This document shows, one piece after another, positions 3,492 to 20,906 of a stretch of DNA of 23,338 nucleotides. Under the pieces are notes generated by a model. That model had not been told where the DNA came from, ran no database searches, and worked only from the letters and a program-made list of their open reading frames with translations. Each line of letters opens with the position of its first letter. The first letter of the stretch is position 1. A program made the translations under genes and the position numbers. The DNA is from a virus: positions 1 to 23,338 of the IMG/VR virus record IMGVR_UViG_3300046012_000483, one strand, 5' to 3'.

Positions 3492-5270
3492 CTAGTCGTG
3501 GTTCAGCTGGACCCCTGCGATGCCCCACCAGTCCGACGCGGACTGGGTCCACCCCAGGGTCACACCACTACCGGTCGCGGGGGCGGTCACCCCACCGGAG
3601 TTCCCGGCACCCGAGCTGCTGTTCCCGTTCTCAATGAACCGGGACACCGCCGGGGACAGGGCCGCATCGAGCGGGTTCCCATCGGTGATGAACCCGGCGA
3701 CCAGGTTGCCCGCCGCCGTGGCCGGGACAGTGACCGACGGGGTGATGCTGAACCCGGTAGCGGCGGTCACCGCACTGAACGGGCTGGCCGGGTCCACGTG
3801 GCTGAACGACTCCCCCCCGGCGGTCAGCACAGACGGGGTGCACCCGGTCATCTTGACGCTGATCACGTTCGCGCCAGCCGGCGGGGCGGGGCGGGCCCAC
3901 AGGTCCATGTACCCTTCGTCACCGCCGTTGGAATGGACGACCGTCAGCCGGGTCATCGCAACCCCGTTGTCGGTGACCTTCTGGGTGCAGCCGACGTCGT
4001 TGCTGATCCCCACCGACGCCTCCACCAGCAGGGCCCGGTCCGTGCCGGACCCGACCGTCTGGGTGAAACTCAGCGACCGGGACCCGAAGCTGCGCGCGGC
4101 GGTGGCCGACCCGAACGCGACGGAGTTACCCGCCGCCGCGGTGGTCAGGACCTGGTCCGCGCCCAGGGTCGTGCCCGTGGCGTTGGTGGCCTCCACCCGG
4201 TAGTGGTAGGCGGTGGACGGTGCCAGGCCCGCCAGGGTGGCACTCTGCGCCACCGAGGCGCTGCCCGAGCCCGCGTCACCAGCGGGGACCGGGACGGACG
4301 TGCCGTAGCTGGTGGTGGTCCCGTAGTCGAACTGGTAGGTGGTGGCCTGGGCTTCGGGGTTGACGGTGCCGTTCAGGGTCGCGGCCGACGCGGTGACCCC
4401 GGTCGCGGCCTGGGTGTTGACCACCGGGGCCTGCGGGGTGCCGCCACCACCCGAACCCGGCGTGGCGGTGATCGTGTAGGCCGACACGGTGAACGTGGCG
4501 TGCTCCGCCGAGGTGATCTCGTACCCGGTGTTCAGCTGGGTCATCGTCACCGGGCCCGGGATGAACCCGTTCGAGGACAGCCAGTCCAGGCCGGCTTTGA
4601 TGTCGATCGTCCCGGACTGCTGGTGGGCGCAGCTGTTCGGCGTGCCCGGGTCAGTGTCGAGCACCATGATGATCTCAGCGCCGGGCCCGCCGTACCGGTT
4701 GACCGTCCAGGTCTGCCCACCGAAAACGGCGGTGCCCAGGATGGTGTCACCGTAGGACCCGGGGTTGCACCGCCCGACCGTGTCCGCCCAGAACATCACG
4801 TCGGACGGGTAGTTCGTCCACACGTCCGGCGCGAACTCATACATGTCATTCGCGCCGGACGGGCCGGCTTCGGTGTAGTTGACTGCGAGGGTGGACAGCT
4901 GGTCAACGGGGGTGTCGGCGGTGCCGTCCCACCCGGCGCCGTCCCAGTCGTTGGTCAGCTGCTGGGTGTCGGGGAACAGCTCCACCGACCCGTTCCCGTA
5001 CGGCTGCGCGTCGGCCACCAGCGACCAGGACTGGGGCCCGCCCGCGGTCAGGGTCGCTGTGGTCTGCGGGAACGCCCCGACGTCCTGGTTGGCCACATAG
5101 GTGTTGAACCCGTTGGACATGGGGCTGAACACATTGTCCTGGTAGGGGCCGCAGTTCTGGCCGAGAGTGACGGTGCAGGTGGCCGCCTGGGCGGCCCCCG
5201 CAGGGGCGGCCAGGGCCAGCCCCGTTCCCAGCAGCGCTGCGCTGAACAGCGCGGCGAGTTTCCTGATCAT
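3492..5270 (-). CDS. secreted GH12-like / fibronectin III-like / beta-module protein
   Basis: A 592-residue protein from ATG 5270 with GAGGAG upstream; an upstream extension would spoil the signal peptide. Residues 1-30 are a signal peptide (MIRK, hydrophobic core, 'AQA' cleavage site). Residues ~40-270 resemble GH12-type concanavalin-like domains: 'CGPYQDN', 'MYEFAPDVW', 'SDVMFW', 'NTGYEITSAE'. Comparing from memory with actinobacterial GH12 cellulases, the acid/base Glu may be E251, but the nucleophile position appears to be D157 in 'SDVMFW', so this may be a binding domain rather than an enzyme. After a Gly linker, residues 282-378 form an Fn3-like domain ('ATLNGTVNPEAQATTYQFDYG', 'YHYRVEATNATGTT'). 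Residues ~384-590 are a beta-sandwich module ending 'WWGIAGVQL', also found in two other proteins here. A Sec signal on a gene among tail genes suggests a cargo or moron gene acting outside the cell. Confidence 0.75.
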   Translation of the reverse strand: MIRKLAALFSAALLGTGLALAAPAGAAQAATCTVTLGQNCGPYQDNVFSPMSNGFNTYVANQDVGAFPQTTATLTAGGPQSWSLVADAQPYGNGSVELFPDTQQLTNDWDGAGWDGTADTPVDQLSTLAVNYTEAGPSGANDMYEFAPDVWTNYPSDVMFWADTVGRCNPGSYGDTILGTAVFGGQTWTVNRYGGPGAEIIMVLDTDPGTPNSCAHQQSGTIDIKAGLDWLSSNGFIPGPVTMTQLNTGYEITSAEHATFTVSAYTITATPGSGGGGTPQAPVVNTQAATGVTASAATLNGTVNPEAQATTYQFDYGTTTSYGTSVPVPAGDAGSGSASVAQSATLAGLAPSTAYHYRVEATNATGTTLGADQVLTTAAAGNSVAFGSATAARSFGSRSLSFTQTVGSGTDRALLVEASVGISNDVGCTQKVTDNGVAMTRLTVVHSNGGDEGYMDLWARPAPPAGANVISVKMTGCTPSVLTAGGESFSHVDPASPFSAVTAATGFSITPSVTVPATAAGNLVAGFITDGNPLDAALSPAVSRFIENGNSSSGAGNSGGVTAPATGSGVTLGWTQSASDWWGIAGVQLNHD

Positions 5271-5327
5271 GATCGGTGCTCCTCGGTTTGGCGGTCGGTT
5301 GGGCACTGCGGATCAAGGCCCCGGCGG

Positions 5328-6632: not shown

Positions 6633-9600
6633 TCAGTACAGCCGTGAGTCGCGCCACCGCCGCCAGAACCCCGCCGTCAGGGCAGGAGCCCCAGCGTCGG
6701 GGGAGTACGCCAGCATCCACCCCGGCCCCTCCGGGTCCATGACCAGCGGCCCCCCGGACATCGCCGCCACACTGTCGAGCGCGGACACCGCCGATTCCCG
6801 GCCGTACGGCGACGCGAGGACCCGGCCCCAGTCCCGGTTCTTGTTCAGCTCCGGGGCGTCAGCCCACAGGTTCGGGGCCCCCACCGCGTCGTTGTACACC
6901 AGCAGCTGCCCGGACACGTCCGCCACGATGATGTCCATGCACCGGTCCGCCGCGTTGGTGGACGTGACCCCCGCCGTGGTGAACGCCGACGTCTGGTCAT
7001 CGGCAATATCACGGCAGGGCAGGGCCACCTCATCGAGCGTCACATACCCGTTGAGGATCGCGGGGATCTCCGCGGACGGGGTCAGGACCCGCGACACCGT
7101 CCGCACGGTTGGGGTGCCCCCCACGTACGGGTACTGCTTGAAAGTGACCGTGTGGGTCCGCTGCGCCGATGGGGTGTCGATCACCAGCCAGATCGTGATG
7201 ATCGTGTACGTGCCGGCGTAGCGGGCGTTCAGCCCAGGGACCGGCGACGGGATGGTGTACTCCCGCCCATCGGGTGCATCGAGCCCCGACCCCACCGGGA
7301 TCAGCGGGGAGAACGTCGCCGGGGCGTCATACCCCGGGACGTGCACGATCAGGGTTTTGATGTTGGGCAGCGCCGCTGTGGTGGTGATCGCCACCGACCC
7401 GTTAGCGGCAGCCGAGGACGACACCGCACCGGACGTGGACACCGCACCACCGGACGCACCGCCAGGCGCCGACCCGGCCACACCCGGGTTGTTCCCCCCG
7501 GCCGCGCCGCCAGCACCACCGGCACCACCCCCGGTGGGGGCCGCTGCGCCGGCCTGCCCGGCCGCGTCGTTGCCCTGGGCCGAATCACCAGCTGAGGACC
7601 CGCCACCGCCACCTGTGGTCACGGCGGTGAAACCGTTACCGCCACGCAGCGGGGTGTTCCCCCCAGCGGGGGTGACACAGTTCGCGGTCACCCCACCGAG
7701 CCCGCCTGTGGTGGTGTCCGGCGGGACGGACTTCCCGCCGTCCGCGACGAACGCCAGGCTGTCGAAACTGGACTTGCCGCCGTCGGTGAGCCCACCTGTG
7801 TTGGCCGACTGGATTTCGATCCCGGCCAGCTCCCAGACCTGCGACGCGGGGGCGGTCAGCCCGCAGGTCTGCGCCCCCGCCGCAGCGGCCTGCTGCCACG
7901 CCCAGTACCCGGTGTAGGTGGACGGGACCACGTGGTAGGCGTCCTCCGTCGCGGAGGACCGGTATGTCCGGGCGGAGGACGCGGCGTTGCGGTCAGCGTT
8001 GACCCACGACACCACGCTTTGCGCCGCGACGGTTGTGCACGTCCCGGACGGGGCGGACCCGGACCCGGAGCTGGACAGCAGCGCCGGGGACCCGGCCAGT
8101 TTCGCGTTGCCCCACCGCTCGACCAGCATCGCGTGTGGCATGGGGTAGCCGGAGAACGGCACCGACACCGTCATGGCTGACGGGGTGGCGCCCACGGTCG
8201 CGGTCCACACCGTGCACCGGGACGTGCCGAACGCCGTCCCGATGTTGACCCGCTGGGTCCAGGTCAGGCCCCCGCCGGACGGGGACCCGAAGCTGGCGAA
8301 CGCATCCTCAATGACCCCCTTGATGACGATGACCTCACCCGCGGCCGGGGTGAAACTGGGGGTGGCCAGGGTGAACCCGTTCGCGCCGTCCTGCTGCACG
8401 AAATACGACGTGGTCAGGGTCGGGAACGTCCCGGACCCGCCCGCCGCGCCGACCACACCGAACATGGCCTGCCCGGGGGTCATCGGGTACGTGTCGTGCC
8501 CCACCCCGGCGCCGGCGCCGCCACCACCGGCCAGCCCAGCGGTGGTGCGGCTGCCACCTTTGCCGGCCGCGCCCTTGACCCGGATTTTCCCCGAGGTCTG
8601 CCCGATCCCGGGGATGAACGTGATCGGGCCCGCGGTGGAGAACGTGGTGGTGGCCAGTGCGGGTGACGCGGGCGCCGCAGGCTGGAACTGGGCGTCCATC
8701 AGGGTGCGGACCACCCCACCGGGCGCACCGATGTTGTACACGGTGCCGCGCAGCTGCGCGATCGGGGCGTTCGCCGACGCGGTGGCGGTGAGCCCGTTGA
8801 GGTACACGTCGGCGTCCATCCGCAGGTTCCCCGAGAATGACACCTCCCGCCACGCTTTGATCGACCACGCGGAGATCGTTGCCACGTTGAACCCGGCGGG
8901 CATGTTCTGGATAGCGAACGTGGTGGTCACCCACGTGGGGAAAGCCGGGTTGTTCGACGCGGAGCACTGCGCGTAGTTGCCGAACGTCGCGACTTTCCCC
9001 GCCCCGTCGGTCAGGGTCAGGGAGAACGTGACCCTGCCCTCATGCCACAGGGTGTAGTTCGACGTGCCGAGCCCGAAGTTGAGGGTCAGCCGGTCCAGCC
9101 CGGTGATGTCCACCGGGCCGGCCAGGGTGTGGGTGTACAGCGGGGCGGTGTTCCCCCCCGACCCGGCGTACGACCACCGGGCCGACGCCGAGTCGCTGAC
9201 GACCTGCGCGGATGACGACCACAGGGACGGCTGGGTGGATGACGACACGGTGGAGAAGTCATCGAGCCGCACCGGGGCCACCGAACTGGACCAGCCCACC
9301 GCCGGGATGGGGAACGGCAGCACCGTGTAATCGGCGCTGCGCCCGAACGGGTGAGCGGGAAACGTCAGGTTCACAAACGCGACCAGTTCGTCCTCACTGT
9401 CCTGGTCGGGGTTCTGCGCGGCTTCGGTGGCCCGGTAGCAGTCGTACACCAGCGGCAGGGCGGTGCCGCCCTGCGGGTCGGGGGTCCACTGCAACGGGAA
9501 CTTGGGCTGATCCACCAGCCCGAAGATCATTTCCTTGGCGCCGTTGAGGTTGGCCCGGCTGGTCCCGTAGATCACCACCGGCAGGGTGATCGTCCGGTTT

Positions 9601-9797
9601 TCGGTGCGCCTGCCCGTGGGGACGCTGCCATCAGTCAGCAGCGCCGCGACGACCGCCGTTTCCGGCTGGCCCGCGCCCCGGTTGAAATTGGGCTGGAGCA
9701 CGAACTCCGCGCCGGGGCACAGCGGGTGGGCTGACGCCACCCCGCCGCGCATCAGCTCGCAGGTGCCCGCGAGGATCAGCGAGTCCGAAGCGCTCAC
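6633..9797 (-). CDS. Dit-like distal tail protein with carbohydrate-binding-like, Gly-rich and beta-module regions
   Basis: A 1054-residue protein starting at GTG 9797, overlapping the tape-measure stop as GTGA, with GGGAGG upstream. Residues 1-165 fit the N-terminal Dit/siphovirus tail-component pattern ('LILAGTCELMRGG', 'RTITLPVVIYGTSRANL', 'FVNLTFPAHPFG'). Residues ~178-345 look like a jelly-roll carbohydrate-binding domain. Residues ~403-457 and ~667-803 are Gly-rich, as in phage receptor-binding proteins, and are split by an inserted beta-sandwich (~458-665, ending 'WELAGIEIQ') that resembles modules in two other genes here. The C-terminal 250 residues end 'MLAYSPDAGAPALTAGFW', a tail ending I recall from Streptomyces-type phages. 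It follows the tape measure as Dit genes do. It likely forms the distal tail ring and contributes to host binding. Confidence 0.8.
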   Translation of the reverse strand: MSASDSLILAGTCELMRGGVASAHPLCPGAEFVLQPNFNRGAGQPETAVVAALLTDGSVPTGRRTENRTITLPVVIYGTSRANLNGAKEMIFGLVDQPKFPLQWTPDPQGGTALPLVYDCYRATEAAQNPDQDSEDELVAFVNLTFPAHPFGRSADYTVLPFPIPAVGWSSSVAPVRLDDFSTVSSSTQPSLWSSSAQVVSDSASARWSYAGSGGNTAPLYTHTLAGPVDITGLDRLTLNFGLGTSNYTLWHEGRVTFSLTLTDGAGKVATFGNYAQCSASNNPAFPTWVTTTFAIQNMPAGFNVATISAWSIKAWREVSFSGNLRMDADVYLNGLTATASANAPIAQLRGTVYNIGAPGGVVRTLMDAQFQPAAPASPALATTTFSTAGPITFIPGIGQTSGKIRVKGAAGKGGSRTTAGLAGGGGAGAGVGHDTYPMTPGQAMFGVVGAAGGSGTFPTLTTSYFVQQDGANGFTLATPSFTPAAGEVIVIKGVIEDAFASFGSPSGGGLTWTQRVNIGTAFGTSRCTVWTATVGATPSAMTVSVPFSGYPMPHAMLVERWGNAKLAGSPALLSSSGSGSAPSGTCTTVAAQSVVSWVNADRNAASSARTYRSSATEDAYHVVPSTYTGYWAWQQAAAAGAQTCGLTAPASQVWELAGIEIQSANTGGLTDGGKSSFDSLAFVADGGKSVPPDTTTGGLGGVTANCVTPAGGNTPLRGGNGFTAVTTGGGGGSSAGDSAQGNDAAGQAGAAAPTGGGAGGAGGAAGGNNPGVAGSAPGGASGGAVSTSGAVSSSAAANGSVAITTTAALPNIKTLIVHVPGYDAPATFSPLIPVGSGLDAPDGREYTIPSPVPGLNARYAGTYTIITIWLVIDTPSAQRTHTVTFKQYPYVGGTPTVRTVSRVLTPSAEIPAILNGYVTLDEVALPCRDIADDQTSAFTTAGVTSTNAADRCMDIIVADVSGQLLVYNDAVGAPNLWADAPELNKNRDWGRVLASPYGRESAVSALDSVAAMSGGPLVMDPEGPGWMLAYSPDAGAPALTAGFWRRWRDSRLY

Positions 9798-12700
9798 ATG
9801 AACCTCCCGGCCACCGTTGCGATGTTTTTGTTCAGGACGTCGTCCAGGCCCCGGCTGGTGCCCGGTGCGACCCCGCGGACCGCGGCGGTGACCTCGCGGC
9901 GCATCTGGTGCATGGCGTCGGCCAGTTCAGCCCACCCGCCACCACCAGACGGTGACGCGCCACCGTCACCCGACCAGCCCGACCGTGGGCCGAACCGGCC
10001 GACCGGGTCCAGGAACGGCATGCCCACGGGCATCCTCGGCCTGCCGAACAGCCCCGCGAGCCCGGCGGGGATCCCACCCGCCGCACCTGGCTGCCCGCCA
10101 CCGATGTAGGGCAGCAGCCACGCCGGCGCCGGGAACGTGGGCCCTGGCGCGGAACCACCGCCGCCACCACTGGACCCGCCCCCGGTGTCGCCGCCACCGT
10201 CACCGCCGGGGTCGCCCGGGTCCGGGGCTGGCTTGCCCGGACCGCCGTACTTGGCGCCGGACGGGTAACCGGCGAGCCGCCGCAGGATCGCGATCTTGCG
10301 GGACAGCGCCGATTCGGTCCTGCCCTCGGTGATGTTGAACCGGGCCAGGTTCGCGCGGGCCACCATCCGGTCCCGGTGGTGCTCGTTGTACCCGATCGTG
10401 CCCTTTTTGGCCTTCGGGTGGTTCAGGAACCACAGCTCGGTGACGTCCACACTGGTCCGCAGTTTCCGCCGCCGGATGGCAGCGTGCTTCTCGTCGGTGC
10501 GCAGCGTGTGCACCGCCGTGGCCAGCTGGGCCAGCCACTTTTTGCGGTACGGGTCGTGCTTGCCGACTTTGCCGCCCTTCGCGAACCCGCCCGGCGGCAC
10601 CCCGAACCCGGAGTTGCCCCCGGAACTGTGGATGACCGTACCGACACCGGGGTTGTCCGCACCGACGTACCGGCCGCCGCCCAGGGAGATCCCGACGTGT
10701 GACGCGGTCCCGCCACCGCCGTAGAAAAAGACCAGTGCACCGGGGATGTCCCCCGACGGTTTGGCCCACAGCTGCTGGGTTTGTGAGGTGCGCGGCGGGC
10801 TGTACCCGTAGTGGTTGTAACACCACTTAGAGAAGCCACTGCAATCCCAGCCTGCCGGGGTGTTACCACCCCACACGTACGGGTGGTTCAGGCCGGTGCC
10901 GAACGACGCGGCGTACCGGGCCAGGCCGCGGTTGCCGCCCTTCCCGATCCCGAAACTGCCCGCGTTGGCTTTCAGCTGCGCGCTTTTGATGCCCGCAGCG
11001 GTCGCTTTCGCGGTGGCCTGCTCAATGGTGGTGACGGTCTGGTTGTACTGGGACGTCTCAAACGACCCCACACCACGGGGGGTGCCCTTGAACGTGCCGG
11101 CGACCTGCCCGCCAGCGGCCATGCCCGGGTACAGGATCGCGGCCTGCCCGGTGTTGACCGCGTGCATGGCCCGGTCCCCGTAGTGGGCCGCCGAGTTGGC
11201 GCGGATCACCCATTCGTTGTTCGACAGGGCGTACAGGCCCGCCTTGTCCTCGGTCGGCCCACCCGGACCGCGGACCGCACCACCGGTCGCGCTGTTCTTG
11301 ATGCGCCTGCCACCACCACCGTTGAGGAGCTGACCGCCGTGGGACAGCTCGGACACGCTCCAGTGACCCGACGCGGCCACGGTGATGTCCACCGCCTTGT
11401 TTTTCAGTAGCCGCAGCGCCTCCCGCAGGGCGTCCACCTCCGCCGCCGCGAACTTGGAATGCCCGGCGTGGACCTTGAGCCATTTGATCTGGTCCTGGAT
11501 GGTGCCGGTGGCCTTGGCCATCCCGTTTTTCTGCCGGGACTCCCCGTTGGCCAGGTCGATGGCCGCCTGGGTGGCCAGGAGCACCTGCTGGCGGGCGTCC
11601 ATCGCCGCGGAGGACTGCCCCCGCAGGCCCGTGTTCGAGTTGTTGATCGCGGTCAGGGCAGTCTTCTGGGCCTGCTGGAACGACAGGAGGCTCTGCTGCC
11701 CGGTCAGAAGCCCGTTGGTGACCCGGTCCAGGGACCTTTTCAGGGCGTTCTGCGCGTCGGTCAGCCGCAGTGACGCCACCGTTGCCTGACCGGACCCGGT
11801 CGCGTAGGAGACAATCTTGCGGAACGCCGCCTGGCCGGCCTGGCCGCTGGCGGCGAGCTGCTGCCCGGTAACCCCCGCCTTCTGCGCGAGCTTCTGCGCC
11901 GCCCCGGCGGACAGCCCGTACACGTCCTGCAACGTGTGCAGCCGCGTGGACAGGTTCGCCGCCGCACTGGCCACCTGCGCGTGGACCTGCGCCAGGACCC
12001 CCATCCTCAGCTGGTACGCCTTCGCGGCGAGCCCCGAATCGGCCATGCCACCCTGGGCGCTGCGGAACGACTGCGCGAGCCGGCTGTTACTGCCCTCCGC
12101 GACGTTGGTCTGCTTCGCGAGCCTCGCGTACGCGTCGGAGCTGAACCCGGCCGCTTTGACCTGCCGGTCGATGGACTCGCCAAGCCTGTCCTCGGTCGCC
12201 TTGAACCCGTTGGTGGCGACGGCCAGCACACCGATCGCGGCGGCGGCCACCCCCAGCGGGCCGAGCAGGGACACCAGCACAGACGCGGCGGTGCCGCCCC
12301 TGGCGACGAACGACGCGAGTTTCCCCCCGGCGGTGCCCGCCGCACCGGAGAACGCCGACGCGGCGACCGCAGCGTTCCTGTACCCGCCGACCAGCCGGCC
12401 GATGACCCCGTACAGCTTCGTGGCCCCAGTGATCGCGGTCCCGGAACTGAACACCGTCAGGCCCGTTTTGACGCCCAGGAACGCGAGCTTGAGCCGGGCC
12501 AGGGTGCCCCGCAGCAGACCGAAGTAGATCACCGCCCGGACCAGGCCGGCGTTCGCGGTGAGCTGCGCCATGATCTGGGTCAGCGGGACCAGGATCTGGA
12601 GAAGCGCCTTGGAGTTCGCCGGGGACGCCAGCCCGACCGTGGCCGCCGCCACGTTCTTGATGATGACCACCAGGTTCTTGAGGACCTGCACCGCCAGGGG

Positions 12701-13801
12701 TGTTTCGGTTTTGAACGTGGTCATCAGCGACTGGAACCCCGAGTGGCTGGGCAGCGACGTGGCCCACTGGCGGAACTTCGCGGTCAGCTTCTCCGTGCCG
12801 GCCCCGACCGTGTCCGCCATCGGGAGGAACGCCCGGATGATCCCGCCGATCCCCACCGCGATGTTCGCGATGGAATGGCCCAGGAACAAGATCGCGGGGA
12901 TCACGTGCGGGACCAGTTCCTGCACGAATTTGGTCAGCCCACCCCCGGACAGCGACCTGGAGGCCTGGCCTATCAGGATGCCGATGGCTTTCGCGCCGGC
13001 CAGTACCAGCGGGGTGATGTCGTGCAGCAGCGGGTTGACCAGGGTCAGGCCCTTCTGCAACGGGGCCAGCACCGGGCGGGCCAGGCCGTTCGCCCACTTC
13101 TGGTAGGAGTCCTGGGTGGCCTTGAGGGTTTTCGCGAACGCGATCACCGGGGCTGGGGTGTCTTTCACCGCGGCGTTGTACTTCGCCTGGGCGGCGGCCA
13201 TCGCCGTGGTGCGGGACGCGGCGGCGGTCTGCTGGGATGCACCCCCGGCCAGGGCAGCCTTGTACGCCAGCTGGCCCGTGACCCGGGCGGAGTCCAGGGC
13301 CTTCTGCGCGGTGGTCACCGCGGACGTCTCGGTGATCAGCGGTTTGAGGGCGACGCTGTACGCGGCCAGGCCCGCACCACCGGACGCGAACGCGGCGGCC
13401 AGCCCACCCGCGGTGACCAGCAGCCCGGCCAGGGCCGGTTCCGCGACGCCCGTCGCGAGGTTCACCGCACCCAGGGCCTTCGCGAAAATGCTGGAGTCTT
13501 TCGACGCGATCTGGGTCACCGCGTCGAACCCGGTCACCGTGCCGACCAGGGCGAACACGCTTTTGTTAGCGGACCCGGCGTCCTTGGACTGCTGCCGGAA
13601 CGACGCGGAGGACCGGCCCACCGACGCGGAGGCCTTGTCCGTCTGGGCGGACAGCTGCCGCATCGCGGTTTCGTTGCGGTTCAGGGCGGCCTGGGACGCG
13701 GCGACGGACTTGTTTGACTTGTCCACCTGGTCGGCGAACCGGTTGAACGCGGAACCGGCCCGGTCGTCCCCGAGCAGCACAAACCGCAGCGTGGTTCCCA
13801 C
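9794..13801 (-). CDS. tape measure protein with NlpC/P60 peptidase domain
   Basis: A 1335-residue protein. GTG 13801 is chosen because AAGGGAGG precedes it by 5 bases; ATG 13819 lacks such a site. Residues 1-80 are coiled-coil-like. Hydrophobic segments (~120-150, ~300-328, ~370-395 and others) alternate with Ala-rich helices, as in tape measures. An NlpC/P60 domain at about residues 950-1060 shows 'HPYVWGG', catalytic Cys987 in 'WDCSGF' (codon 10843-10841) and His1035 in 'ASHVGIS' (10699-10697). A basic segment and a Pro/Gly-rich linker follow, then a short C-terminal helix. At roughly 0.15 nm per residue the length implies a tail near 200 nm. The peptidase probably cuts host peptidoglycan during DNA entry. 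The order is typical: chaperones upstream, Dit downstream. Confidence 0.92.
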   Translation of the reverse strand: MGTTLRFVLLGDDRAGSAFNRFADQVDKSNKSVAASQAALNRNETAMRQLSAQTDKASASVGRSSASFRQQSKDAGSANKSVFALVGTVTGFDAVTQIASKDSSIFAKALGAVNLATGVAEPALAGLLVTAGGLAAAFASGGAGLAAYSVALKPLITETSAVTTAQKALDSARVTGQLAYKAALAGGASQQTAAASRTTAMAAAQAKYNAAVKDTPAPVIAFAKTLKATQDSYQKWANGLARPVLAPLQKGLTLVNPLLHDITPLVLAGAKAIGILIGQASRSLSGGGLTKFVQELVPHVIPAILFLGHSIANIAVGIGGIIRAFLPMADTVGAGTEKLTAKFRQWATSLPSHSGFQSLMTTFKTETPLAVQVLKNLVVIIKNVAAATVGLASPANSKALLQILVPLTQIMAQLTANAGLVRAVIYFGLLRGTLARLKLAFLGVKTGLTVFSSGTAITGATKLYGVIGRLVGGYRNAAVAASAFSGAAGTAGGKLASFVARGGTAASVLVSLLGPLGVAAAAIGVLAVATNGFKATEDRLGESIDRQVKAAGFSSDAYARLAKQTNVAEGSNSRLAQSFRSAQGGMADSGLAAKAYQLRMGVLAQVHAQVASAAANLSTRLHTLQDVYGLSAGAAQKLAQKAGVTGQQLAASGQAGQAAFRKIVSYATGSGQATVASLRLTDAQNALKRSLDRVTNGLLTGQQSLLSFQQAQKTALTAINNSNTGLRGQSSAAMDARQQVLLATQAAIDLANGESRQKNGMAKATGTIQDQIKWLKVHAGHSKFAAAEVDALREALRLLKNKAVDITVAASGHWSVSELSHGGQLLNGGGGRRIKNSATGGAVRGPGGPTEDKAGLYALSNNEWVIRANSAAHYGDRAMHAVNTGQAAILYPGMAAGGQVAGTFKGTPRGVGSFETSQYNQTVTTIEQATAKATAAGIKSAQLKANAGSFGIGKGGNRGLARYAASFGTGLNHPYVWGGNTPAGWDCSGFSKWCYNHYGYSPPRTSQTQQLWAKPSGDIPGALVFFYGGGGTASHVGISLGGGRYVGADNPGVGTVIHSSGGNSGFGVPPGGFAKGGKVGKHDPYRKKWLAQLATAVHTLRTDEKHAAIRRRKLRTSVDVTELWFLNHPKAKKGTIGYNEHHRDRMVARANLARFNITEGRTESALSRKIAILRRLAGYPSGAKYGGPGKPAPDPGDPGGDGGGDTGGGSSGGGGGSAPGPTFPAPAWLLPYIGGGQPGAAGGIPAGLAGLFGRPRMPVGMPFLDPVGRFGPRSGWSGDGGASPSGGGGWAELADAMHQMRREVTAAVRGVAPGTSRGLDDVLNKNIATVAGRFM

Positions 13802-13827
13802 CGGGGCCTCCCTTGACATGCAGGTAA

Positions 13828-13861
13828 AGGCGGCCCGCGCATGGGGTGCGCGGGGCCGCCT
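13828..13861 (-). terminator. strong hairpin just upstream of the tape measure gene
   Basis: AGGCGGCCCGCGCA (13828-13841) pairs with the complementary arm at 13847-13861 with one bulged base, forming a ~14-bp GC stem around a 5-base loop. On the minus strand the stem is followed by TTTACC, a short U-tract. It fills the 77-base gap between the gp10-like gene and the tape measure, so it may attenuate transcription or act as an RNA processing/stability element. Confidence 0.5.
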
Positions 13862-13878
13862 CACGGCCGGTGCCCAGG

Positions 13879-14457
13879 TCAGGCTTTGAGCCGTTTCGCT
13901 ACGTCGTTCATCGCCGCCTGGGCGGCGTCCTGGAGGTCCCGGCCGGACGCGATGATCGGGTCCTCGAACCACTGCGGTTTGCCGGTCTGGTGCCTCCACG
14001 TCCACGCCCCGGCTTTGACCGTGGGCCGCAAACCGGGGGCCATGTGCCGGAACTTCCGGTTTTTCGACGGGGCCGCTTTGAACCGTGACCCACGCGCATA
14101 CACCGGGTGGGGCCAGCCCTCCCGGGAGTCCACATGCTTGGGCAGGGTGCTCTCACCCCTGGGCATCTTGGAGCCCAGCGACACAATGTCCAGCCGGATC
14201 CCGTTCTTCGTCAGCCCCACCGAGCTGCCCACCGTCCGGGCGATCGTCTCCCGCAGCGGCGGGTGCGGCCGGGCGCCCGGCTCCGATGGTTTGACCGCCA
14301 TGTCCAGGATGGACCGCTGAACCTTTTCAACGGTTGGCCTGGCCAGGGCCCGGAAGTTGCGGCGCAGCTCCCGTTTCAGCTGCGGGTCCGCGCTGCGCAG
14401 CAGGATCGCCAGTTTCCGCATCTGCGCGGGCCCGGTCCCGGTGATCTGAGCCATCAC
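13879..14457 (-). CDS. HK97 gp10-like tail completion/neck protein
   Basis: About 192 residues. GTG 14457 overlaps the chaperone T-frame stop as GTGA, with ATG 14454 as the alternative start. The N-terminal half is helical and basic ('LKRELRRNFRALARPTVEK'). The C-terminal half has the gp10-like signature of a Gly-Trp-His-Pro segment ('REGWPHPVYARG'), then 'WRHQTGKPQWFEDPI', and a terminal helix rich in Ala ('QDAAQAAMNDVAKRL'). gp10-like proteins normally act at the head-tail joint and their gene usually precedes the tail terminator; here the gene lies between the chaperones and the tape measure. The assignment rests on remembered motif patterns, so another tail protein with a similar fold is possible. 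Confidence 0.6.
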   Translation of the reverse strand: MMAQITGTGPAQMRKLAILLRSADPQLKRELRRNFRALARPTVEKVQRSILDMAVKPSEPGARPHPPLRETIARTVGSSVGLTKNGIRLDIVSLGSKMPRGESTLPKHVDSREGWPHPVYARGSRFKAAPSKNRKFRHMAPGLRPTVKAGAWTWRHQTGKPQWFEDPIIASGRDLQDAAQAAMNDVAKRLKA

Positions 14458-15025
14458 AGCCCCCTGGTGTTGATGTTCTTTTTCCTGGTCCGGGCGCCGT
14501 TACGGGCCGCCCACAGGTCGGCTTCCTCCTGGTCGGTCATCCGGTAGTACTCGGCCCATTCGGCGATCTCCCGGCTGTCTACATACCGGAGGGTGTCTCT
14601 GACGGACCGTCCGAGCTGGGCGGCGAGCCGGAAGTAGACCCGCCGTTCGGGGTGTTCCCGGAGTCTTTTCCCAGCTCCTCCATGTCCTCCTCGGACAGGC
14701 CGGACAGCCGGGCGGCGACCTGCCCGACCCGTTCCAGGGCGGCGGCGGACTTGCGGCCCAGGGCATCTACCTGCTGCTGGGTGAACGCCGGCTCCAGGGT
14801 GTCGGGGTTCACGATGCACCGGGAGCACAGTTTCGCGGACGCGTTCGACACGTCCTGCACCACCCGTTTGCCCTGCTGGACGGCCATGGCCGCGAAATAC
14901 TCATCACGGCCGTGGCCGTCCATGCCGCGCACCAGGACCTTGCCGTGCCACTCGGGCACGTCAACGGTTTCGGTGGGGCGGTCATCTGCGTCAAGGATCT
15001 GCTCAGCGGTCAGAAATTCGGTCAT
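14454..15025 (-). CDS. tail assembly chaperone, long frameshift product (GT-type)
   Basis: By a -1 shift at GGGAAAA (14672-14666) ribosomes pass from codon 120 of the short chaperone into the overlapping frame and read 70 further residues to the TGA at 14454, giving about 190 residues. The added segment ('RVYFRLAAQLGRSV', 'SREIAEWAEYYRMT') has the 'SREIAEW..YYR' motif typical of T extensions in siphophages. The next gene starts with a GTGA overlap on this frame's stop, not on the short product's stop, which supports real use of the T frame. The long form is expected to bind the tape measure and recruit tail tube subunits, and is not normally kept in the virion. Confidence 0.88.
14579..15025 (-). 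CDS. tail assembly chaperone, short product (G-type)
   Basis: A 148-residue protein from ATG 15025. Residues 1-60 form a beta-rich start ('VDVPEWHGKVLVRGMDGHG'), followed by helices with 'LCSRCIVNPDTLEPAFTQQQVDAL' and 'AALERVGQVAARLSGLSEEDMEELGKD'. This is the familiar actinophage G-chaperone layout. After the slippery site the zero-frame tail is low-complexity Ser/Gly/Pro. It lies between the tail tube region and the tape measure as expected. The gene is preceded by a 42-base gap after the His-rich gene. The G-to-GT ratio set by slippage normally matters for tail assembly. Confidence 0.88.
   Translation of the reverse strand: MTEFLTAEQILDADDRPTETVDVPEWHGKVLVRGMDGHGRDEYFAAMAVQQGKRVVQDVSNASAKLCSRCIVNPDTLEPAFTQQQVDALGRKSAAALERVGQVAARLSGLSEEDMEELGKDSGNTPNGGSTSGSPPSSDGPSETPSGM
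14666..14672 (-). promoter_or_regulatory. programmed -1 frameshift slippery heptamer
   Basis: On the minus strand 14672-14666 reads G GGA AAA in the zero frame, an X XXY YYZ heptamer: Gly119 GGA and Lys120 AAA can re-pair as GGG and AAA after a one-base slip. It lies near the end of the short chaperone, as in most siphophage tail chaperone genes. Confidence 0.9.
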
Positions 15026-15686: not shown

Positions 15687-16166
15687 TCAGGGGATCACGA
15701 CGTTCTGCGCCGGGACCTTCGTGATGGTGAACTGGACCTCGATACGGCCAGGGTCATCAGTGCCGGTCTGCGGCACGCACGCGGCGACCTTGATGGGGAA
15801 AACGTCCATCTTCTGGCCCACGACGTCGCCTTCCCACAGGCAGATGATGAACCCGGCGGTATCGCGGGGCAGCACCGTCCGCACATCGTTGGAGGTGGAA
15901 CTGGCGTAGATCGTCAGGGACGAATCGTCGGCGCTGATCCGCCCGGGGATCTTCCCGGTGAACCGGGATGACAGGTCCGGGACGTCCACCGACGCGGAGC
16001 TGACCGTGAACCCGGACACCTCCGCGACCTCATCGGACAGGTCAGTGCCCGCGTTGATTTCCGCCCTGGTCGGTGCGGTGTACGTCGCGATCGTCGGCAC
16101 GTAGTAGAACTTCCGGGTGCCTTCGGGGACGTACCTGGTCGTGGCTGTCAGCTTCGGCGGTGCCAT
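15687..16166 (-). CDS. major tail (tube) protein
   Basis: A 159-residue protein starting at ATG 16166, overlapping the preceding stop as TGATG. The sequence closely follows tail tube proteins of Streptomyces-type siphophages as I recall them: 'LTATTRYVPEGTRKFYYVP' at the start, 'PTRAEINAGTDL' near residue 35, 'SRFTGKIPGRISADDSSLTIY' in the middle, then 'GQKMDVFPIKVAA' and a strand-rich end 'VPAQNVVIP'. The length suits a single-domain tube subunit with no added Ig domain. It should polymerise around the tape measure. The chaperone pair lies downstream with one extra gene between. Confidence 0.88.
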   Translation of the reverse strand: MAPPKLTATTRYVPEGTRKFYYVPTIATYTAPTRAEINAGTDLSDEVAEVSGFTVSSASVDVPDLSSRFTGKIPGRISADDSSLTIYASSTSNDVRTVLPRDTAGFIICLWEGDVVGQKMDVFPIKVAACVPQTGTDDPGRIEVQFTITKVPAQNVVIP

Positions 16167-17665: not shown

Positions 17666-18484
17666 TCAGACCGAGGGGAGCAGGTCACCCTCCAGCAGCT
17701 CCAGGACCCGCCTAGGCACGGAGAAGCTGAACCCCTGCGTGGAGCTGAACACTTCCTCGCCTTGCAGCAGCGCCGGGGCCATCGACCCCCGCTGGGTTTC
17801 CCACAGGTGCCGGCACTGTTCCTTCGCCGCGTGGATCCACGGTTCGCGGATCTCCGCCCGCCCGCACGTGTAGACCGCATCCCACGGCCCCCACCAGAAC
17901 TCCATCATCGACGGCTGGTAGATCAGCCCCGCCTCACTGTCCGCCGCCAGGACCGTCCCATCCCCAGGGTCGGCCCACGACGGGCCACCCGCCCACTGGG
18001 AGGTGACCGACTGGACCGACAGGATGGGCCGGTTCGGGACCACCAGCTGCAACCGGCCCTCACTGACCCGGTCGGTGAACTGGCGGGGCACACAGATCCC
18101 GATCTTGTCCTCGACCAGCTCCGTGGCCGCCATCATGAACGCCGCCATCTCATCGTCACTGCCGGCCTTGACCCGGGACTTGTTCAGGTGGTCTTTCATC
18201 TCGGCCATCGACACAATGGAGGCGTACCGGCGGACGTTGACGAACTCGGGGAACGGTGCCGTGCCCGGCCCGGTGGTGACCCACGCGAACTGGTACAGGC
18301 CCGGCGCCGGGAGGGTGTAGTCGTAGGTGTAGATCCCCGACCCGGGCGGGTTATTGACCGGGGCCGGGGCCGGGGACAGCAGCTTCCCCCCCGGCAGGGT
18401 GATGTTCAGGGACACACCACCCGCCGGGATGCTGCCATCCCCGACTTGCAGCTTCGCCTCGTACACCTGTCCCGCGCACAGCAC
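17666..18484 (-). CDS. head-tail connector (HK97 gp6-like) with N-terminal beta domain
   Basis: A 272-residue protein from GTG 18484, directly after the TAG of the repeat-protein gene, with GGGAGG 7 bases upstream. Residues 1-85 look like a small Ig-like beta domain ('GIYTYDYTLPAPGLYQFAWVTTGPG'). Residues ~88-130 give the gp6-like helical signature ('SMAEMKDHLNKS', 'DDEMAAFMMAATELVEDKIG'). After a beta insertion ('PILSVQSVTS') comes the final helix 'REPWIHAAKEQCRHLW'. Connectors of this type form a ring between portal and tail. Position before the tail terminator fits. Confidence 0.8.
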   Translation of the reverse strand: MLCAGQVYEAKLQVGDGSIPAGGVSLNITLPGGKLLSPAPAPVNNPPGSGIYTYDYTLPAPGLYQFAWVTTGPGTAPFPEFVNVRRYASIVSMAEMKDHLNKSRVKAGSDDEMAAFMMAATELVEDKIGICVPRQFTDRVSEGRLQLVVPNRPILSVQSVTSQWAGGPSWADPGDGTVLAADSEAGLIYQPSMMEFWWGPWDAVYTCGRAEIREPWIHAAKEQCRHLWETQRGSMAPALLQGEEVFSSTQGFSFSVPRRVLELLEGDLLPSV

Positions 18485-20386
18485 CTACGGCCTCCCGCTG
18501 GTAGTCGAAACCGCCGGGCCGGCGCCGCCGCTGGCCACGCTGGACACCAGAGGACCGCCCCCGGCCAGGGCGGTCCCGAATACAGCCGGGGTCACAGCGA
18601 CCGCGGCAGCTCTTAGTGCGGCACCCACCGCTGCGGCCAGCCCAGCGGTGGGCAGCGCGGACAGGTGCAGCCCAGCTCCCGGCGCGGTCGCGGCCCCAAG
18701 CGCGGCCCCTGCCGGGTAGAACATGGACCCCACCCCGGCAGGTGCCGGCGCGGCCCCGGCCCCGGCGGCCACGGTGGTGACCCCACGGCTGGCCAGGGTC
18801 AGTGACGTCACCGGGGCGGCACCGGCCGCCTGGGCCAGGGCCACCGCGAACCCGGCGCCGGGGGTGACCGGCTGGGCGGCCCCGGAGGCCGCCGCGACTC
18901 CGGCCGCCGCCGCCACCGCCAGGGTCACCGCTGGTGCGGTGCCGGTGGCGGCGGCCGGGCCGGCCAGCACCGTGCCCGCCAGGGTCAGGGCAGGTGCGGA
19001 CACGGTTCCCGCCGCGCGGGGGACGGTCACCGACGCGGCCAGGGTCAGGGCAGGGGCGGTGCCGGTTCCCGCCGCCGGGCCGGCGACGGCGGAGGTCTGC
19101 CCGCTGGTGGAAGCGGACGCCCCCGGAGCGGACCCTGTCCCAGCTCCCGGGCCAGCAGCGGGTGCCACCGTGGCGGCTGGGCCCGGGTTGGGTGCGGTGC
19201 CCGTGCCAGCAGCACGCGGCACCGCCGCGGTCGCGGCCACGGTCACGGCCGGCGCGGATCCGGTGCCTGCCCCCACCGGCACCGCCGCCGAAGCGGCCAG
19301 GCCCGCACCGGGTGCACCGCCCGTACTCACCGCAGCCGGGACCGCCGCTGCGGCGGCCAGGGCCAGGCCTGGTGCCGTTCCGGTTCCCGCACCGGCCGCC
19401 ACCGCCACCGTGGCGGACAGGCCCGCTCCCGGGGCGGCGCCAGTCCCCACGGCCAGACCTGCGGTAGCTGTGGCGGAACTGGACGTGGACGCGGTCACCA
19501 CCGGGGCGGCCCCGGTCCCAGCGGCCACCGTGGCGGCTGGGCTGACCGCCGCCGTGACCGACCCACCGGGGGCGGTGCCGGTGCCAGCCGCCCGGCTGGT
19601 CGCGACCGAGCCGGCCAGGGTCAGGACCCGTGCCGCACCGGCACCCGCCGCGACCGGCGCCGCCGGGGCCACCGCCGCAGCAGCGGCCGGGCCGGGGGCC
19701 GTCCCGGTCCCTGCGGCCACCCCGACCGACGCGGACGTGCCACCACCGCCGGCGACCTGCGCGACCCACACCCCGGCGTAACAGGTGCCCGGTGATGCGG
19801 ACTCGGCCAGCGGTGTCCACGTCAGCCCGGAGCTGTCCGTGATCGCCATTGTGGTGGAGGTGGTCCCGTTCGCCGCCCCGTCGGTCCCCACCAGGGCCAC
19901 CAGAAGCGCCCCCGCCGGCGGGGTGAAACTGGCCGTCGTGACCGCCGTCAGTGTGTCAGTGAAAGCGAGCGTCGGCGCGGAGGCGTCCTCCGCCAGGGTG
20001 GTGTTCGCGAGTATCTCAGCGGCGGCGATGTTCTCGAACCCGCCCGCCGCCGAGGACAGGCCCACCGTGGTCGCGCCGGGGGTGCCGGTCACCGACGTGG
20101 TCCTCACATACCCGTACGACTCACCGTTGGGGGTGTCGTCGTGCTGGGCCCCGGCCGAGCAACCAGTGTTCGGGGTCCATGCCCCGGAGCTTTCCTGGCT
20201 GATCGCGGCGTAGACCAGCGACCCGGCGACGGTGGTGGTGACACTGACCCGGTTCGGGCTGGCACCCTCCAGGTGGTTGTGCCCGCCGGTCTGGCTGGCC
20301 GGCGCTTTCGCACCGGTCAGCACCACCACCTTGAGAGCCATCCCGGCGAATGACGCACCACCCTGGGTTGCGGTTACCGTCGCCAC
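18485..20386 (-). CDS. large Ala-rich protein with tandem 20-residue repeats and beta-module halves
   Basis: A 633-residue protein from GTG 20386, with GGGGAGG 10 bases upstream. Residues ~1-127 resemble the second half of the beta-sandwich module found in the Dit-like and secreted proteins ('VSVTTTVAGSLVYAAI', 'FENIAAAEIL'). Residues ~150-213 resemble the module's first half ('SFTPPAGALLVALVG', 'SSGLTWTPL', 'YAGVWVAQVAGG'). From ~221 to ~560 run about 16 degenerate repeats of 20 residues with a core like 'AAGTGTAP' followed by an Ala/Val/Leu stretch. The C-terminus is Ala-rich. Related Ala/Gly repeats occur in actinophage fibre-like proteins as I recall. It lies immediately upstream of the connector, so a head or neck fibre or decoration is likely. 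The exact role is unknown. Confidence 0.75.
   Translation of the reverse strand: MATVTATQGGASFAGMALKVVVLTGAKAPASQTGGHNHLEGASPNRVSVTTTVAGSLVYAAISQESSGAWTPNTGCSAGAQHDDTPNGESYGYVRTTSVTGTPGATTVGLSSAAGGFENIAAAEILANTTLAEDASAPTLAFTDTLTAVTTASFTPPAGALLVALVGTDGAANGTTSTTMAITDSSGLTWTPLAESASPGTCYAGVWVAQVAGGGGTSASVGVAAGTGTAPGPAAAAAVAPAAPVAAGAGAARVLTLAGSVATSRAAGTGTAPGGSVTAAVSPAATVAAGTGAAPVVTASTSSSATATAGLAVGTGAAPGAGLSATVAVAAGAGTGTAPGLALAAAAAVPAAVSTGGAPGAGLAASAAVPVGAGTGSAPAVTVAATAAVPRAAGTGTAPNPGPAATVAPAAGPGAGTGSAPGASASTSGQTSAVAGPAAGTGTAPALTLAASVTVPRAAGTVSAPALTLAGTVLAGPAAATGTAPAVTLAVAAAAGVAAASGAAQPVTPGAGFAVALAQAAGAAPVTSLTLASRGVTTVAAGAGAAPAPAGVGSMFYPAGAALGAATAPGAGLHLSALPTAGLAAAVGAALRAAAVAVTPAVFGTALAGGGPLVSSVASGGAGPAVSTTSGRP
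18707..19726 (-). repeat. about 16 tandem degenerate 60-bp (20-residue) repeats
   Basis: In the encoded protein the unit is roughly A-A-G-T-G-[TAS]-A-P-x4-A-x7, recurring at mostly 20-residue spacing from residue ~221 to ~560, with a few units lengthened to 21-25. At DNA level neighbouring units share stretches such as GCCAGGGTCAGGGCAGG (plus strand, near 18978 and 19038). The repeat phase is a multiple of three throughout, so copy number could change without breaking the frame. Confidence 0.85.
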
Positions 20387-20420: not shown

Positions 20421-20906
20421 TTACAGGGTGTAGCGGAATATGCCCAGCACGTCCCAGACCACGGTGAACGTCCCGGCGGTCACCCCGGCGGGCTGGGTGC
20501 TGAACGCGTGGTAGGACATGCCGAGGTCCGCGACGGGGGTGGTGACCGTGTCGTCGTAGACCAGCACCCCGTACGCGTTCGCGATCGTGACGTTCCCCGC
20601 CCCGGCCGTGTCCGCCGCGTCGTACCACACCACCCCGGCGGTATCGGCGAAATGGGTGGTGATCCCGGACAGGACCCGCCCGCCGGCCGCCCAGTTGGTG
20701 TCGGTCAGCTCGTTAGCGGCGACCCACGCCCCGCCCGCACCGTTGTAGGCGTTGTGCGCGGCGGTGTCGTCCTGGTTGGGGGTGCCGGTATTCCCGTAGA
20801 TCGCGACCTTCGGGACGTCGGTGTCCAGGTCGATCGCACTGGTCGTGCGGTCGCACAGGTCCTTGGTCCAGTTCCGCATGATCTTTGAGCTGCTGCCGAA
20901 TGTCAC
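20421..20906 (-). CDS. small beta-rich phage capsid/fibre-associated protein candidate
   Basis: A 161-residue protein from GTG 20906, three bases after the previous stop, with GGGGAGGG 8 bases upstream. The layout 'AIDLDTDVPKVAIYG' then 'TPNQDDTAAHNAYNG', 'WAAGGRVLSG', 'VVWYDAAD', 'ANAYGVLVYDDT', and the ending 'GTFTVVWDVLGIFRY' matches a common phage family I recall. Its members read as '..D..KVAL....YTPN.D.H....', then '..AGG..L....', and end '..G.FTI.WD..GI'. They are usually annotated as hypothetical or decoration proteins encoded near capsid genes. Its place before the repeat protein and connector fits a virion component. Confidence 0.7.
   Translation of the reverse strand: MTFGSSSKIMRNWTKDLCDRTTSAIDLDTDVPKVAIYGNTGTPNQDDTAAHNAYNGAGGAWVAANELTDTNWAAGGRVLSGITTHFADTAGVVWYDAADTAGAGNVTIANAYGVLVYDDTVTTPVADLGMSYHAFSTQPAGVTAGTFTVVWDVLGIFRYTL

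Follow-up and report, generated by a model that had tools for sequence, protein, structure and literature searches.

The window analysed here is a virus record of 23,338 bases with a GC content of 70.5%, in which all of the recognised structural genes lie on the minus strand (Table 1). The same strand encodes a large repeat protein, and its gene ends with a stop codon directly against the start codon of the adjoining gene, an arrangement that suggests coupled expression of the two. The product of the adjoining gene belongs to the head-tail adaptor family phrog_442 (E 9e-13), with a match that spans the adaptor core, and this agrees with the original prediction that the repeat sits beside the connector and neck genes. 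Since the major tail protein is encoded at 15687-16166, the repeat gene is placed upstream of the tail block, and its position in the capsid-to-neck interval, outside the tail-tip gene block, likewise bears out the predicted neck or head fibre locus rather than that of a tail fibre. The repeat protein itself matched 0 families among the PHROGs and Pfam profiles at E values of up to 0.1. The tail block also encodes a 604-residue protein (3492-5306, minus strand) with weak fibronectin-type III-like matches, which is a candidate tail-tip protein.

Table 1. Features of the repeat-protein locus and of the neighbouring structural genes in the window.
Feature	Position	Strand	Remarks
Dit-like distal tail protein	6633..9797	-	1054 aa; profile searches
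Tape-measure-like protein	9794..14005	-	1403 aa; phrog_329
Tail assembly chaperone	14579-15025	-	
Major tail protein	15687..16166	-	phrog_2491, E 2e-30; 36% to Streptomyces phage ZL12
Head-tail adaptor	17666..18484	-	phrog_442 profile match, E 9.2e-13, residues 24-265
Ig-like N-terminal extension of the adaptor	18221..18484	-	aa 1-88; putative dock for the repeat-protein tail
Repeat-protein gene	18485..20386	-	633 aa; GTG start, preceded by GGGGAGG
C-terminal tail	18488..18592	-	aa 599-633; TPAVFGTALAGGGPLVSS...STTSGRP; conserved in position
Repeat array	18593..19729	-	aa 220-598; about 18 units of 19-26 aa; core GTGxAP
N-terminal module	19751..20386	-	aa 1-212; predicted beta-sandwich, pLDDT about 90 in most blocks
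Gene immediately upstream of the repeat gene	20421..20906	-	phrog_644-like, E 2.7e-4

The 20-residue Ala/Gly/Thr/Pro unit with an AAGTGTAP-like core that had been predicted is indeed present, with its gene on the minus strand and the array at 18593-19729, and the predicted count of sixteen units comes close to the 18 that we count over residues 220-598. The claim that the unit length is constant at 20 has to be rejected, as the units measure, in order, 19, 22, 20, 22, 24, 20, 20, 20, 20, 22, 24, 20, 20, 20, 21, 20, 26 and 19 residues. What is constant is the even parity of the core-to-core spacings, which are 20, 22, 24 or 40 residues and are even in 13 of 13 cases when measured on the clear AP anchor. 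The self-identity of the array at a lag of 20 residues (0.28 versus 0.17 in shuffles, z 7.7) is far above what composition gives, and lags of 40 and 60 likewise stand out. The hydrophobic residues hold one parity from one end of the array to the other (Fourier power at period 2, 31.5), and because the spacing is even and these residues alternate strictly every two positions, the sequence suggests that the array forms beta strands.

At the DNA level Tandem Repeats Finder detects just 1.9 copies in the array, and the units are on average 55% identical to one another (maximum 73%), with a protein identity of 42%. Judged by the best DNA identity, the copies are old, and a recent expansion of copies in the window is rejected on these values. 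Mismatches between units are most frequent at the third codon position of the minus frame (0.58 versus 0.38 and 0.38 at the other two), and hence the minus frame is the coding one and the protein unit is the thing that is conserved. The same third-position excess led us to reject a plus-strand origin of the repeat. Plus-strand ORFs over the array are open solely because of composition, and one of 352 residues (18723-19781) is an antisense by-product of the GC-rich repeat.

Searches with the repeat protein and the adaptor yielded contig L004 and twelve others, and these were followed by 80 viral contigs plus nine genomes of actinobacteria. A repeat protein is encoded just upstream of a phrog_442 adaptor in several prophages of actinobacteria and in about 40 contigs of uncultivated phages. 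The repeat and its site beside the adaptor are thus shared by relatives, so that one of the two outcomes named as refuting the original prediction is not seen. The repeat ORFs of the roughly 40 contigs have periods of 18, 20, 21 or 22 residues and end no more than a few bases from the start of the adaptor gene, and the lengths of the proteins among relatives range from about 360 to 1,420 residues. The predicted variability in copy number is apparent between close relatives of L070 (63-73% identical), which differ by whole 20-residue units, while the window itself gives no sign of recent recombinational expansion. Pooled over the relatives other than L022, in which the spacing is nearly constant at 21, 190 spacings are even and 11 odd, an indicative count on regular-expression anchors chosen by eye. 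Contigs with a GC content of 48-49% keep the 20-residue period with other residues (z 8.8 in L071, 14.3 in L063 and 9.5 in L078) and L085 has an Asp-rich 20-residue repeat (z 15.2); hence composition is not the cause of the period. Repeats very unlike that of the window (DDPAGLTD, ETDTARPLGR, SARKAAPAAG and Arg-rich), with a period mostly near 20, precede the Ig-extended adaptors described below in L085, L151, L108, L152 and L019. ORFs that by eye resemble HNH endonucleases lie directly upstream of the adaptor in L015 (2424-3077) and in L075 (7433-8005), in the latter between the repeat gene and the adaptor.

Among cultured phages, tblastn found no relative of the N-terminal module of the window or of the L004 and L055 repeat proteins, nor of the window, L022 or L019 adaptors, and the L071 adaptor matches Vibrio phage adaptors from about residue 82 on only, past the Ig-like extension. 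The cultured phages Typha and Courthouse, which have a related capsid, have no repeat-protein-like gene annotated between capsid and adaptor, and the Courthouse adaptor is of the short form, without the extension. We found no description of this repeat-protein family in the open-access literature, and proteins of this kind appear to be undescribed so far.

The array is accompanied by modules that differ between relatives. The beta-sandwich module of the window is common to L004 (56-57% identity), L038, L030 and L051, and Apiosidase (PF13204; E 7e-23, 9e-22 and 3e-8) and Collagen_bind_2 modules are found in L030, L033 and L035. The module of L022, from Planobispora siamensis, has a Laminin_G_3 match below the cutoff, and further relatives carry other beta domains as N-terminal or internal modules. 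As judged from the sequences, the Apiosidase, Collagen_bind_2, LamG-like and beta-sandwich modules are therefore interchangeable, and in L054 and L107 a module and a tail occur without an array. Across relatives the last 30-50 residues have no obvious common sequence except for a Gly-rich end (..TSGRP, ..RGGAQ, ..GEGVN). A period of 10 residues is evident in the tails when 26 proteins are pooled (z 9.4) and within the window's own clade (z 4.6), and is not significant in the window tail taken alone. The C-terminal tail would be the constant, anchoring part of the protein.

The N-terminal extension of the adaptor, about 90 residues long and placed ahead of the conserved core, is labelled Ig-like from a sequence pattern and a weak filamin match, rather than from a solved or predicted fold, and a search of solved structures with the adaptor profile returned weak filamin matches alone (E about 0.1), over the Ig-like part. 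The repeat protein lies beside 40 of 69 Ig-extended adaptors in IMG/VR versus 0 of 12 unextended ones, and beside 5 of 19 versus 0 of 41 in GTDB genomes drawn from the class and the order to which Planobispora belongs. In a non-redundant set the repeat accompanies 35 of 67 extended and 0 of 27 unextended adaptors (Fisher p 2e-7, with kinship ignored), and about half of the Ig-extended adaptors have no repeat detectable upstream. A tree of the adaptor core implies five or more changes between the extended and unextended states, and a phylogeny-aware test of the link between extension and repeat is not significant because the independent contrasts number just five, none of them opposite in direction for the repeat.

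From the gene layout, the repeat, the conservation of the locus, the swapping of modules and the co-occurrence with the Ig-extended adaptor, we propose that a modular appendage of the virion is attached at the head-tail neck or close to it and that the array serves as its stalk, a reading that we consider somewhat probable. In such a fibre the N-terminal module would be the outward working end (a beta-sandwich in the window, lectin-like or glycoside-hydrolase-like in relatives), the units of about 20 residues would form a beta-rich stalk with a length set by copy number, and the tail with its 10-residue period would anchor the fibre, its most likely attachment site being the Ig-like extension on the adaptor ring that the adjoining gene encodes. 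The swappable tips, whether lectin-like and putatively glycan-binding or sugar-cutting, probably help the virus to grip its host or surroundings, and the protein is apparently fixed near the neck of actinobacterial viruses from soil. A broader version, which we regard as possible but less than likely, is that the Ig-extended adaptor, the 10-residue-period tail and the stalk of about 20-residue units together make up a dedicated neck platform of the plug-in type in uncultivated actinophages, on which any module (lectin, glycoside hydrolase or other beta domain) may be mounted, the length of the stalk being adjustable and its unit size kept while its sequence drifts beyond recognition. The same modular appendage might instead be a head fibre, placed on capsid vertices or capsomers, as the repeat gene has capsid-proximal genes on one side and the adaptor on the other, with capsid genes upstream in L022 and L055. 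However, it is with the Ig-extended adaptor, and not with a capsid variant, that the repeat protein is consistently paired, and the repeat gene is the gene nearest to the adaptor in nearly all loci, and we think a head fibre rather unlikely.

The nature of the array itself also admits other explanations. If DNA of 70% GC simply left most frames open, the repeat could be a by-product of codon bias, and several frames are in fact open over the array, on both strands; but the mismatches are concentrated at third positions in the minus frame, this frame also gives an N-terminal module with 56% identity to that of L004, and a GC content of 48% leaves the period intact. On these grounds we reject such an artefact as extremely improbable. 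AlphaFold2 gives a confident beta-sandwich for residues 1-212 of the window protein and a pLDDT of about 32 for the array, a value that, together with a composition of 35% Ala, 17% Gly and 9% Pro, would suit a flexible, largely disordered Ala/Thr/Pro linker between the N-terminal module and the tail, without a fold of its own. Such a linker is unlikely, however, in view of the even-only spacing and long-range hydrophobic alternation, the constancy of the period through very different sequences and GC contents, and the beta rungs modelled for the relative L070, with three regular strands per 20 residues at a pLDDT of 60-87. Compared with solved folds, the repeats of the L070 model are closest to the CsgA, HxuA and FHA beta-solenoids (Z 13-17), while the window model had no match above Z 4 in a fold search. 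The solenoid envisaged in the original prediction is thus obtained for a relative and not for the window array, and AlphaFold2 has a known bias towards solenoids when given repeat sequences (PMC11795689). A triple beta-spiral, or another obligate trimeric beta fibre in place of a monomeric solenoid, would be compatible with the neck fibre, the fold of the stalk being the sole difference. It would accord with the alternation of small and large residues, with Gly and Pro at fixed places, and with the failure of monomer prediction for the window array, whereas L070 is modelled as a monomeric solenoid and the unit here has 20 residues compared with roughly 15 in adenovirus shafts; we regard a trimeric stalk as doubtful, though to be taken seriously.

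The closest analogue of the proposed neck fibre is the neck passage structure (NPS) of the lactococcal 936 and TP901-1 phages, an accessory collar protein of 500-900 residues at the head-tail connector that comprises one constant part, a stalk and tips that vary and bind carbohydrate, is missing in some members and is non-essential in TP901-1 (PMC6669499). The likeness lies in the constant part, stalk and variable tips beside the connector, known here from genes, and the placing of the repeat gene beside the adaptor among structural genes matches the NPS in gene position only. In the NPS the N-terminal part is conserved and the C-terminal carbohydrate-binding module varies, whereas the window family has the reverse order, with variable N-terminal and internal modules and a constant C-terminal tail. 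The NPS stalk is a helical coiled coil rather than a 20-residue beta repeat, and, unlike in the NPS, the partner here is apparently an Ig-extended adaptor and Apiosidase-family enzymes occur. Because of the opposite polarity, the beta-repeat stalk and the lack of any sequence relation found, we do not file the family as a member of the NPS.

The whiskers of phage T4, formed by fibritin (wac), are also accessory fibres at the neck, and fibritin is a coiled coil. Accessory neck fibres would be the common feature, the neck site being putative in our case, and the absence of helix from the window model and the beta strands of L070 differ from a fibritin-like coiled-coil stalk. Mycobacteriophage Douge has surface Ig-like and glycan-binding domains on its capsid and tail-tube proteins, and domains of this phage bind mycobacterial glycans (PMC13033339). 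The window resembles Douge in having Ig-like domains, so labelled from sequence, in an actinophage, and differs in that they are on the adaptor, as a proposed dock. The beta-solenoid adhesins (HxuA, FHA and CsgA of Pontibacter) are like the L070 model repeats in fold, a likeness of shape only that comes from an AlphaFold2 model with a known bias and involves no sequence relation.

A few cultured phages are known to have neck fibres that end in glycan-binding tips, and the locus described herein indicates a large uncultivated group that would have an anchoring domain of its own and in which the period of the stalk is conserved while its sequence is not. The Ig-extended adaptor and the C-terminal tail represent a testable pair, and relatives are present as prophages in strains that can be cultured, Planobispora siamensis NBRC 107568 (L022) among them. 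Our analysis also suggests that in contigs of soil viruses some Apiosidase-family genes encode parts of the virion and do not have to be auxiliary metabolic genes. Domains of this family occur in soil-virus structural clusters of L026 (3531-4871), L030, L033 and L035, and Apiosidase genes in virion clusters could be mistaken for auxiliary metabolic genes.

Genes for sugar and methyl transfer are also found near these loci. In the window a methyltransferase gene (PF13578; 22474-23160, minus strand) is located upstream of the repeat gene. L037 has GT4 and FkbM genes (611-2455), and Courthouse (L105) three glycosyltransferases and an O-methyltransferase (9624-13679), in the stretch between capsid and adaptor or ahead of the repeat gene. 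Given these nearby genes, the Thr-rich repeat, or else the capsid, may be glycosylated.
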